Part shown: one piece after another, positions 1 to 31,655 of the stretch
Layout: the number at the start of each line of letters is the position of its first letter
Position numbering within the stretch: position 1 is the stretch's first letter
IMG/VR virus record: IMGVR_UViG_3300006751_000074
Coordinates: 1-31,655 of that record
Strand: one strand, 5' to 3'
DNA length: 31,655 nt
From: a virus
The notes under the pieces: generated by a model
What the model saw: only the letters and a program-made list of their open reading frames with translations
Told to the model about the DNA's origin: nothing
Databases searched by the model: none
Program-made: the position numbers and the translations under genes

Positions 1-11
1 ATTTTGGGGGG
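1..11. repeat. Left copy of 11-bp terminal direct repeat
   Basis: The first 11 bases, ATTTTGGGGGG, are identical to the last 11 (31645-31655). The repeat lies between the co-chaperonin gene and the small terminase gene once the ends are joined, which is where a cos site is expected. It may be a filled-in cohesive end or an assembly overlap of a circular genome; sequence alone cannot decide. Confidence 0.8.
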
Positions 12-113: not shown

Positions 114-425
114 CTATGTTTTGTCGATCTTTGTCCATTCGACCCGCACCTCGTACGAATCAGAGACAACGCCGGCGATTTCCTCGGGCACAATCGCGGC
201 GATCCGTAGTCCCTCGAACACGCATTCGAGCCCCATATCGCGCCTAAATAGCACAATACAACCCGGTTTTATGCTTGGATCCGTTACTTCCGAGCCGACA
301 GAGAGCACCGCAGCCAGCGGACGCGGCACCTCAGCGCCTAAAACGATCCCGCTGTCCGTTTCCCGCTCTGCATCGAGCGGAGCAACCACCACCTGTCGGC
401 CTACTGCCTTAACTAATCGCGCCAT
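114..425 (-). CDS. groES-like: GroES/Cpn10-type co-chaperonin
   Basis: 103 aa, close to the ~95-100 aa of GroES. The Cpn10 pattern is visible in order: a VGRQVVV first strand (8-14), a mobile-loop segment ending in SGIVLG (25-30, compare GGIVL in GroES), AAVLSVG (38-44), KPGCIVLF (53-60) and a final strand LRIAAIVPEEIAGVV (73-87). A 15-residue C-terminal extension follows. In the family this protein caps GroEL; phage versions such as T4 gp31 replace host GroES for capsid folding. The start is ATG with GGGTAGGAA directly upstream; the stop is TAG. It points out of the left end, so after end-joining it lies about 220 bp upstream of the small terminase gene on the same strand, at the head of the late operon. 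I infer the major capsid protein as its client. Confidence 0.87.
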   Translation of the reverse strand: MARLVKAVGRQVVVAPLDAERETDSGIVLGAEVPRPLAAVLSVGSEVTDPSIKPGCIVLFRRDMGLECVFEGLRIAAIVPEEIAGVVSDSYEVRVEWTKIDKT

Positions 426-5523: not shown

Positions 5524-5897
5524 AACCGGCGCGCATAAAAAACCACGTGCGACCCTTGCACACCGTGAAAAGAAAAAAGTTTCCGCAGTGCGCGGATCAC
5601 ACGCACAGCCCCGCTATAGCTAGTGGTCGAGCATATCTCGTTCACCTGGATAGAATCATCACCGGGCAAAGCGGCCAACGCGTAAACGCGGTATTGCGGC
5701 CGCTGTCCGTACATACGAGCGCGCCGCAAAAGGATCCGTGGCTCGATCTGATCTTGATACCTGCGCCAGTCGGCAATATCGTAAACCCGCAGCCGGCAAA
5801 GATTCGCAACCGCCTTCGGCTCGAATCGTAAATGTTTCTCCGTATTCTGCGAGACAGAAACGACCCGCCCGAATAAACCGCCCGCTCTTTCACCCAT
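5487..5897 (-). CDS. Hypothetical protein between two direct repeats (136 aa)
   Basis: ATG 5897 is preceded by GGAGG in repeat copy B, and its TAA overlaps the next ATG by 8 bp (ATGGGTAA). The N-terminus MGERAGGLF and C-terminus AALSVGG are encoded within the two repeat copies. The start therefore resembles the next gene's start, and the end resembles the ligase's end. The core has an arginine-rich helix (EPRILLRRARMYGQ), short strands and a basic segment (AVRVIRALRKLFSF). I recognise no family. The repeats suggest that it was gained as a unit. Confidence 0.65.
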   Translation of the reverse strand: MGERAGGLFGRVVSVSQNTEKHLRFEPKAVANLCRLRVYDIADWRRYQDQIEPRILLRRARMYGQRPQYRVYALAALPGDDSIQVNEICSTTSYSGAVRVIRALRKLFSFHGVQGSHVVFYARRLAALSVGGNKNG

Positions 5898-5926
5898 TGC
5901 CGTAACCTCCAACGCTGAGAGCCGCC
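5875..5926. repeat. 52-bp direct repeat, copy B (gene junction)
   Basis: Partner of 5472-5523, offset 403 bp. It spans the end of the ligase gene (AALSVGG...stop), a GGAGG site and the start of the 136-aa gene, in the same arrangement as copy A. Confidence 0.9.
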
Positions 5927-6792
5927 GACAGCGTGCAAGCCTGCGCGCCTTTGTCTGCGTGCCAGTCTACAAAACTAGGGTGTCGCAGCGCGCCGCTAGG
6001 GTATACCGCAAACCCGGCCGCCCGGAAAACCCGACCGACGTATTGCTCGGCGTGCGCTGCCATTTCGCCGCGCTGCCAGTCGTAAAGAGATCCCGCGTTT
6101 ACTGCGCCCGTGAGTTTGCCGCCCTTATACAGCCCACCGATTACAGACTTAACCGCGCCCGACGGTCTGCGGTTGAAACCCATGCAGACGTAATCCACCT
6201 CGAACCGTCGTTTTATTCGGATGCAATCGTCGCCGAAAGCGCCCTCGCTGCGCTTTGCGACTAACCCTTCCCAGCCCTGCCCGAGCACATACTCGCGCCA
6301 TATGCAATCAAGCCGCACGCCCATTATTAGCCAGCTACTCGCAAACGACCAGTTCGGCACGCACGCAACCAGCCCGCCCGAAAGTTTGCCGAGCCCCTCG
6401 AAATCCTCGTCGCCACCGACCAGCCTTTCGAGCCATTGCCGGCGCTCGCAGTGCGGCCGCTCGCCGTCCATTTGCACGTCGAAAGCGTAAAACATGCCCG
6501 CCCGATTACCACCTCGCGACCAGTGGGTGCCGTGCATAAACTCGCCGTAAAGCACAGCGCGACCGCCGCCAGCGGACAGCCTGATCGTTCCCTTGTGCGC
6601 GCCCGAGCGTGAGTAAATATCACAACGCCGACCATCGACAACCATACGCGCCGCGCAACCGTCCGCCTTAAGCTCGATCGTATCGAACCCGCGCTCGATA
6701 AGCTCGCACGCTACCGCCGATCGCTGCTCGTCGGTTTCCATCCGCGCGCCGATGTCGGTAAAATTTATTTTATTCGCTGTGCCGATCTGCAT
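5890..6792 (-). CDS. ATP-dependent DNA ligase
   Basis: 300 aa from ATG 6792, with GAGGGGG five bases upstream. Nucleotidyltransferase motifs are in order: I with catalytic lysine K42 (LKADGCA), LYGEFM (81-86), FYAFDV (101-106), IV EGLVAKR (175-181) and V RIKRR (192-196). An OB-fold part follows, with GGLYKGGKLTGAVNAG and RHPSFVDW (270-277), typical of small phage ligases. It seals nicks, probably in replication and repair with the Sak4, SSB and resolvase proteins encoded nearby. Its last residues AALSVGG fall in a direct repeat, and its leader is a near-copy of the leader of the upstream gene. A hairpin-T7 terminator ends 31 bp before its ATG, so expression may depend on read-through. Confidence 0.9.
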   Translation of the reverse strand: MQIGTANKINFTDIGARMETDEQRSAVACELIERGFDTIELKADGCAARMVVDGRRCDIYSRSGAHKGTIRLSAGGGRAVLYGEFMHGTHWSRGGNRAGMFYAFDVQMDGERPHCERRQWLERLVGGDEDFEGLGKLSGGLVACVPNWSFASSWLIMGVRLDCIWREYVLGQGWEGLVAKRSEGAFGDDCIRIKRRFEVDYVCMGFNRRPSGAVKSVIGGLYKGGKLTGAVNAGSLYDWQRGEMAAHAEQYVGRVFRAAGFAVYPSGALRHPSFVDWHADKGAQACTLSAALSVGGYGNG

Positions 6793-6813
6793 CCGTCCCC
6801 CTCGTGCTGTCCA
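6790..6813. repeat. 24-bp leader repeat, copy 1 (ligase start)
   Basis: Matches 7133-7156 at 23 of 24 positions. On the minus strand it reads from about 20 bases upstream through GAGGGGGACG to the ATG. It gives the ligase and the upstream zinc-protein gene the same ribosome-binding region. Confidence 0.88.
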
Positions 6814-6823
6814 CCTACACCAC

Positions 6824-6851
6824 AAAAAAACGCACGACCCGTTGTCGTGCG
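6824..6851 (-). terminator. Rho-independent terminator
   Basis: On the minus strand an 8-bp perfect stem (CGCACGAC, paired with 6831-6838 and 6844-6851) closes a 5-base loop and is followed by seven T (6830-6824). There is no T-run on the plus side, so it is directional. It lies just after the 90-aa zinc protein gene and just before the ligase leader. Confidence 0.85.
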
Positions 6852-6862
6852 CTCGATCTGGG

Positions 6863-7135
6863 TTAGTACAGCAAACAAAAAAGACACGTCGCCAGCTCAT
6901 CGGCGCACGTGCACCCCTCCGCGCGGATCTCGGCCTCTTGCCTGCGGCGCTTTTCCCGCCGCACCCGCGCCGCCGCCTCGCGCTTTTCTGCGAATGCGTC
7001 GCCGCACGCCGGGCACCACTCAGGATCGCAATGATGCCCGCAAGGATCTGGCGCCTGCGTGCCGCACCCGCGCGCGTCGTTGTACGCATTAACCCCGTGG
7101 CTCATTGCAACCATGTTTACTTGTTCCTTTGTCAT
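6863..7135 (-). CDS. Small cysteine-rich zinc-binding-like protein (90 aa)
   Basis: The start is set at ATG 7135 by GAGGGGG five bases upstream in leader repeat copy 2. Two cysteine clusters are present: C24, C32, C36, C41, C44 (ending CPAC) and C75, C77, C84, C87 (CTC...CLFC). They are joined by a highly basic helix (KREAAARVRREKRRRQEAE). This suggests a zinc-stabilised nucleic-acid-binding protein, but no named family is recognised. It is the first gene of its operon, divergent from the phosphoesterase gene, and is followed at once by the terminator. Confidence 0.65.
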   Translation of the reverse strand: MTKEQVNMVAMSHGVNAYNDARGCGTQAPDPCGHHCDPEWCPACGDAFAEKREAAARVRREKRRRQEAEIRAEGCTCADELATCLFCLLY

Positions 7136-29703: not shown

Positions 29704-31056
29704 CTATGCCGTCGGCTGTGTCTCTGGGATCTTTTTATAGTCTCGATCATATCGTCCAAAATGCCACGCGGCCCAATAGCGGAGCGCGTCGGCGTGGTGG
29801 TCGTGCTTTCCTTTGCTCGCCACGTCATCGAACACTGTATACCCGTCTGGCGTTTTCCGCTCTCGCCAGCGGTAGTGCTGCATCGAAGCGAGCATACCAC
29901 GATCGGTTTTTGTTTGCTGCAAACGAGGCGCAAAGTATAGCCGCCGGTTTCCCTGCCAATCAAGCAACAACCCCTTAAGCACGTCGATCCCTCGGTTGAT
30001 ATTCTGGATAAACTTCCCGCGTGGCGCGTACACGGGTACGCCCTTAGTCCGGCGCCGTAGATCGTTCACCGCCTCCGACGGGTTCGGGTCGGCGTGGATC
30101 GCTGTTAGATCGTGGACACTGATGCCCCATTCTTTTGTTTTTTCCTCCACCTGCGCGATTAGGTGCCGGTGTGAAATCTGGTCCTCGGCTATCTCGTCGA
30201 ACACCACCGATCGCCCGTCCTCGCAAGTCTGGATCCAGATTGCCGCCGGCATGGACGGACCCCAATCGATCGCTACGTATGTTTTGCGCCGGTGCGTGGT
30301 GAATTGCCACGACGGATCGAGGCTCGCGATTGCGTCAAATTCGGGATAAACCAGCCCGCCCGAGGTATCGACCAGGCGGCCCATTACCTGCTGGTCGTAC
30401 TCGGAGGCGCTGATTCCGCAGGCAACCGAATCGAGGTAGCCGTCGGGTAGGTGCACATTGTCAAAACTGGTGCCGCGTATAATGTCGAAATTAGGGTTCC
30501 CGCTCGCGCGCTGCTGCGTGAAATGCCCAACCACGCCACCCGGGCCGCGCGGAGTTGTCGCGACTATCCCGTAAAGAATGGGCGACAGCGGATCGCGCCG
30601 GCGTTGACATAGCACATTCCAGGCGGCGAGGGATGCCTCGGGTCCGAGTAGCGCGCCCTCGTCGAGCACAAACCCGGCGAGGCTGGCGCCAGCAAAGCGC
30701 GACGGATCCGAAAGCGTGGCCACTAGAATGCGCGATCCGTTTATCATTTCGATCTGTCGGTTGCCTGGCGCTGTCCAGCGTCGGCGATCCAAACCGAACC
30801 CGTTTAGATTTTTTACGGTGTCCAGAAAGCCGCACAGCTCGGGCCAGATGCTCGAGTCGATTACCCGGAAACTGGGGCCGCCGATTAAATGCAGCGCGCC
30901 AGGCCGGCAGCGGAAAACCATCGACACCAGCTCGCGCACGACGGCGTAGGTTTTGCCGCCACCGACGCCCGAAAGGTAAAGCCGGTTTAGTGCCGGGCTT
31001 TTATGAAAGGCGCGCTGGCTGGGGTTCGGATTGTATGGCGGCAGAATCAGGCGCAC
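29704..31056 (-). CDS. terL: Terminase large subunit
   Basis: 450 aa from GTG 31056, which shares a base with the upstream TAG. ATPase: Walker A SGVGGGKT (29-36), Walker B GFVLDE (128-133), coupling motif ATTPRG (166-171). RNase-H-type nuclease: D264 in VAIDWG, D323 in IHADPN, and HDHHADALRY (418-427) with D419 and D423. It pumps DNA into the head through the portal and cuts concatemers. The adjacent genome end and terminal repeat suggest that the cut is near its own operon start. Confidence 0.93.
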   Translation of the reverse strand: MRLILPPYNPNPSQRAFHKSPALNRLYLSGVGGGKTYAVVRELVSMVFRCRPGALHLIGGPSFRVIDSSIWPELCGFLDTVKNLNGFGLDRRRWTAPGNRQIEMINGSRILVATLSDPSRFAGASLAGFVLDEGALLGPEASLAAWNVLCQRRRDPLSPILYGIVATTPRGPGGVVGHFTQQRASGNPNFDIIRGTSFDNVHLPDGYLDSVACGISASEYDQQVMGRLVDTSGGLVYPEFDAIASLDPSWQFTTHRRKTYVAIDWGPSMPAAIWIQTCEDGRSVVFDEIAEDQISHRHLIAQVEEKTKEWGISVHDLTAIHADPNPSEAVNDLRRRTKGVPVYAPRGKFIQNINRGIDVLKGLLLDWQGNRRLYFAPRLQQTKTDRGMLASMQHYRWRERKTPDGYTVFDDVASKGKHDHHADALRYWAAWHFGRYDRDYKKIPETQPTA

Positions 31057-31541
31057 TAATTAACGTCACCGGTGCTGGTTTGCGGATCCCAGTCTGGCCA
31101 CGGTTCCCACGCTACCGTTATTCGGTCGGGGTGTGTGCCGAGGTTCATTTCGGCTTGTAGCTTACTCGCAGACAGCGCGAGCGTTAGTAGTCTGTTTATA
31201 ACCGTGGAGGCGTCGCGGATCTCTTTTACTATCTCCGTCGGATCGGCGGCGCTTATATGGTCGCGCAGCGCGTCGGCTAGATATTTCGCCTGCGTCATGG
31301 CGACACGGTACACCACGTCGGGTCCTTGCTCGTCGGAGCTGCCGAGTTGCTCGAAAAACTTTCGCGTCTGCGCGTCTGGATAAATCTCTTTTAGCTTACG
31401 GCGGACGAATGCGTCGCCGGTTGCCGTGGTGCGTTTCTTTTTCGGCGTGCCGGTCGCGCTTTCCTGCGCCGAGTCGACGGTCGCCTCGTTTAGTTTGCGT
31501 TCACTCTTGCGAGCTTGTTTGTAGTCTCTTTTTTTCGCCAC
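31056..31541 (-). CDS. Terminase small subunit (probable)
   Basis: 161 aa from GTG 31541; an in-frame TAG lies 14 codons upstream, so no longer version exists with a usual start. The N-terminus is basic and disordered (MAKKRDYKQARKSERKL, TPKKKRTT). A helical middle (FVRRKLKEIYPDAQTRKFFEQLG, YRVAMTQAKYLADALRDHI) and a long helix (VKEIRDASTVINRLLTLALSASKLQAEM) could form the ring. It directly precedes the large subunit and lies next to the genome end where it would bind DNA. The call is by position and shape. Confidence 0.7.
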   Translation of the reverse strand: MAKKRDYKQARKSERKLNEATVDSAQESATGTPKKKRTTATGDAFVRRKLKEIYPDAQTRKFFEQLGSSDEQGPDVVYRVAMTQAKYLADALRDHISAADPTEIVKEIRDASTVINRLLTLALSASKLQAEMNLGTHPDRITVAWEPWPDWDPQTSTGDVN

Positions 31542-31644: not shown

Positions 31645-31655
31645 ATTTTGGGGGG
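31645..31655. repeat. Right copy of 11-bp terminal direct repeat
   Basis: ATTTTGGGGGG, identical to 1-11. Joining the ends through one copy places the co-chaperonin gene upstream of the small terminase gene on the same strand. Confidence 0.8.

Follow-up and report, generated by a model that had tools for sequence, protein, structure and literature searches.

The window analysed here covers positions 1 to 31,655 of the IMG/VR virus record IMGVR_UViG_3300006751_000074. Near its left end, the minus strand carries an open reading frame of 103 amino acids that starts with ATG and has a candidate ribosome-binding site of the AGGA type just 5' of it. This gene, its most telling motif and the neighbouring features that bear on its interpretation are collected in Table 1.

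Table 1. Features of the window discussed in the text
Feature	Coordinates	Strand	Basis or remark
Cpn10/GroES-family co-chaperonin gene, 103 aa	114..425	minus	stop codon 114-116; Pfam, PHROG, shuffle and codon-position controls, fold match
SGIVL motif, mobile loop residues 25-29	339..353	minus	alignment to E. coli GroES GGIVL; HMM alignment
Left 11-base direct terminal repeat copy ATTTTGGGGGG	1..11
Right 11-base direct terminal repeat copy	31645..31655
161-aa ORF, presumed small terminase subunit (terS)	31056..31541	minus	by position only, directly upstream of terL
Terminase large subunit (terL)	29704..31056	minus	phrog_2, 102.7 bits
Major capsid protein, Mu gpT-like, 297 aa	25358..26251	minus	Pfam Phage_capsid_4 and Mu-like_gpT over cut-off

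The 103-residue product matches the Pfam Cpn10 family (PF00166) at 26.5 bits (E 6.8e-6; cut-off 21.1), its residues 5-86 being aligned with positions 2-92 of the 93 in the profile. Its best PHROG is PHROG 3188, "co-chaperonin GroES" (36.9 bits, E 4.8e-9). With a control Cpn10 HMM built without this protein, it scored 17.3 bits, against 8.4 for the highest of 5000 shuffles of the same residues and 3.6 for the best-scoring of the remaining 268 stop-to-stop frames (60 aa or longer) in the window. The G+C content by codon position (0.68/0.43/0.61) is like that of the other genes of the phage. Because the family match, the shuffle and other-frame controls and the codon-position G+C agree, we consider the gene to be real. 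The same DNA is overlapped by a 155-aa plus-strand frame, but the idea that this antisense frame is the true gene and the minus-strand one spurious is almost certainly wrong, since the family match and the shuffle control favour the minus-strand reading, as does the codon-position G+C, which in the antisense frame (0.48/0.66/0.61) is unlike that of the other phage genes.

Judged by its sequence, the protein is thus a member of the Cpn10/GroES family, and a very divergent one. Indeed, it is the most diverged of those compared, with a Pfam score of 26 bits against 32-120 in the other 38 records, and its scores lie below the NCBIfam GroES equivalog and subfamily cut-offs (21.4 bits at best against 215; the others 14.1-19.4 against 96-136). 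The SGIVL of the mobile loop occupies the position of the GroEL-binding segment in GroES, and the IVL tripeptide is kept exactly with respect to E. coli GroES while most of the remaining sequence has changed. The loop itself is the shortest among 46 sequences, with 9 residues against 11-19, that is about 2 residues below the 11 of typical Cpn10s, and this shortness could weaken binding to GroEL. In addition, the roof hairpin is absent, only 7 residues separating the VG and VKxGD positions instead of the usual 13-15, a shortening by seven. The jumbo phage CBB likewise has a Cpn10 with a short roof, and so do a few environmental viruses. The combination of a missing roof and a short loop is the one mildly unusual feature of the finding. 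As a separate observation, two viral contigs (L141 and L143) have a Cpn10 match with a short roof inside a 206-aa open frame, possibly representing two Cpn10 domains or a fusion.

Structure prediction was informative when an alignment was supplied. From the single sequence, AlphaFold2 reached no usable model (pLDDT 38); an alignment of 46 Cpn10s drawn from viral and bacterial loci led to an eight-strand barrel (pLDDT 76, pTM 0.66). All of the 35 best PDB matches of this model found by Foldseek are GroES/Cpn10 or T4 gp31. With VIA-align, Z reached 11.5 for GroES and 9.2 for GroEL-bound gp31 (2cgt), against 6.4 for the best unrelated chain, and was 10.3 for E. coli GroES (1aon chain O). In a viral structure library, the named entries among the best 50 matches are all viral co-chaperonins or chaperonins. 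As the alignment is itself composed of Cpn10s, the predicted GroES-type beta barrel confirms compatibility with that fold rather than giving independent proof of it. An earlier note, made on the DNA letters alone, had read this locus as a GroES-type co-chaperonin and had proposed a profile search against Cpn10 and a structure prediction as checks; both agree with the assignment. The same note described a full Cpn10 with an SGIVL mobile loop, and this description holds for the motif and for the nearly complete coverage of the profile, the roof hairpin being the part that is missing.

The position of the gene gains its meaning from the ends of the record. An exact 11-base direct repeat occupies both ends (two 11-mers drawn at random from this contig would agree with a chance of about 2e-6) and supports the joining of the contig ends in a circular or cohesive-ended genome. 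Eleven bases is a usual cohesive-end length. The repeat sits in the gap beside the presumed terS and possibly stems from cohesive ends that were filled in or from an assembly overlap that was trimmed; a scan for independent records across the joined ends returned none that spans the junction. With the ends joined, the minus strand reads GroES, a gap of 216 nt, the presumed terS, terL, a probable portal protein (weak match, 15.4 bits), the capsid protein, a tape-measure-like gene and an Amidase_2 lysin. The presumed terS has no match in Pfam, PHROG or NCBIfam. Inspection of the fold and T-runs of this gap on the minus strand revealed no clear terminator. The earlier note had placed the co-chaperonin gene upstream of terS at the head of the late operon. 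The joining that this requires is supported by the repeat, terS keeps its name by position only, and the place at the head of the late operon is plausible from the shared strand and from the adjacency to the presumed terS after joining; the gene may be co-transcribed with the late genes across the 216-nt gap.

The plus strand carries genes for a primase-helicase, a RusA-like resolvase, a metallophosphoesterase, a Sak4-like protein and an SSB. An ATP-dependent DNA-ligase-like gene (5890-7089, minus strand) lies between plus-strand replication genes. Divergent from the GroES gene, a 95-aa plus-strand ORF (465-752) has phage-like codon-position G+C and no family match. The gap in front of the primase gene, which is richer in AT, contains a long inverted repeat (773-818 and 907-952) with two 46-nt arms that are 74% complementary and 88 nt apart; its fold as single-stranded DNA is much more stable than that of shuffled sequences (z -5.3), and it is a candidate replication origin or control site. 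The window contains neither Rfam matches nor tRNA. Two peptidoglycan hydrolases indicate a bacterial host. No Cpn60/GroEL match exceeds the cut-off in the window; the tape-measure-like gene gave a Cpn60 match of 16.7 bits, which is below the cut-off and was discarded as a chance resemblance in a long helical protein. Relatives of the GroES, TerL, the capsid protein and a 950-aa late protein were sought in viral contigs and none was found, and tblastn of the phage GroES against the phage collection gave no match. Within the viral collection searched, the phage is therefore an orphan.

A co-chaperonin in a phage of this size had been presented as surprising, phage examples being best known from large phages such as T4. 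Little of this surprise is left: the occurrence of GroES in phages well below the size of T4 is established by examples of about 40-59 kb that are published or deposited. A report of 2015 described Pseudoalteromonas phage B8b as the first siphovirus to carry GroES (PMC4294664), and its relatives among Shewanella and Vibrio phages (45-50 kb) also have the gene. Like the window, these are medium-small tailed phages with a Cpn10 gene within the late block, but their groES lies between the tail-completion and major tail genes and the roof of their protein is of about normal length (14 residues). In the HTVC023P-type pelagiphages, 82 phages with genomes of about 59 kb, GroES belongs to the core genes (PMC9599517); it is also encoded by Roseobacter phage CRP-901 (53 kb). 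These phages share the Cpn10 with the window and differ from it by their larger genomes (53-59 kb); in CRP-901, the gene is inside the structural block and the protein has a longer loop and roof. According to a Southern Ocean virome study, most of the viruses in it have analogues of GroEL/GroES (PMC8407431).

The closest layout is that of Xanthomonas phage PBR31 (MT119766, orf017; 39,980 bp), in which GroES is followed by one small gene, terL, portal, scaffold and capsid. As in the window, the Cpn10 gene is on the strand of the packaging and head genes and the phage has no GroEL. In contrast, the roof of the PBR31 protein is complete (14 residues) and its mobile loop is long (16), its identity to the protein described here is only about 18%, and the genome is 8 kb larger. 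The main text of the PBR31 paper does not mention GroES (PMC10975493). With the GroES phages of about 40-59 kb and the PBR31 layout known, both the small genome and the position of the gene have precedent. The window, at about 31.6 kb, is nevertheless smaller than the published GroES phages compared, and its protein is more diverged. A survey of other viral contigs for GroES near terminase returned few terminase matches and many groES-groEL pairs, possibly from host DNA or very large phages. We also observed that a 46-kb phage from Manatee Spring, a distant capsid relative, has a Cpn10-like gene (13699-14163) near its SSB gene and outside the late block.

Two further proteins frame the comparison. 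E. coli GroES matches the predicted fold and has the same IVL motif, with about 24% identity, but the phage protein lacks the roof hairpin and has a C-terminal tail of about 15 residues. T4 gp31 is likewise a phage co-chaperonin without roof loops, and differs by a mobile loop that is longer than that of GroES (22 against 16; PMC6318259), whereas that of the window is shorter than usual. The client of gp31, the capsid protein gp23, is about 56 kDa, and a wider chamber has been argued for it (PMC6318259); the capsid protein of the window, with 297 aa, is well below that size.

We consider it probable that the phage Cpn10 acts as a seven-fold ring lid on the host GroEL while phage proteins fold. 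Briefly, the 103-aa proteins would most likely assemble as a heptamer, and the ring would dock on the host GroEL through the IVL tripeptide in its mobile loop, the host chaperonin being the likely partner because no GroEL is encoded by the phage itself. The lid would then close the chamber during the folding of phage proteins, most likely those of the head or tail that are produced late in infection. Given the missing roof hairpin, the top of the dome should be more open, as described for T4 gp31. The reason advanced for T4, that the client outgrows the GroES chamber, cannot simply be carried over, since a capsid protein of 297 aa is small enough for an ordinary chamber. The suggestion that the capsid needs a matched cap is in this respect possible but not required, and the roofless lid could be relevant for clients other than the capsid protein. 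A further reading, which we hold to be unlikely, is that this compact, roofless, short-loop lid of an orphan phage lineage (about 31.6 kb) gives the chamber of the host GroEL another shape to suit the small capsid protein.

Two other functions have to be weighed against that of a lid serving phage proteins. The high divergence, the short mobile loop, the place next to the packaging genes and a weak second PHROG labelled "head morphogenesis" (20.8 bits) could together suggest that the protein has a Cpn10 fold but serves in the virion or its assembly, for instance as an accessory barrel of the head, and has ceased to work with GroEL. Such a loss of partnership is poorly reconciled with the exact retention, amid wide change, of the tripeptide used for GroEL binding, or with a best PHROG and structural neighbours that are co-chaperonins, and we regard it as improbable. 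Even less credible is a lid acting mainly against the host, competing with host GroES and redirecting or slowing host folding with no special phage client: it would accommodate a capsid protein of only 297 aa, for which no special chamber is obviously needed, and a lid unusual in two places (loop and roof), but the position beside packaging and head genes fits an assembly role and the sequence offers no evidence of an inhibitory one.

The preferred reading, a lid for the host GroEL, leaves unchanged the view that phages of many sizes carry co-chaperonins. What the locus adds is a strongly diverged Cpn10 without a roof, in a phage whose genome is smaller than those of the published examples compared, and hence a compact test case of which parts of a lid are needed to work with GroEL. 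Finally, if the doubtful proposal of a roofless lid adapted to a small capsid protein were true, it would mean that phage lids evolve for reasons besides the size of their clients.
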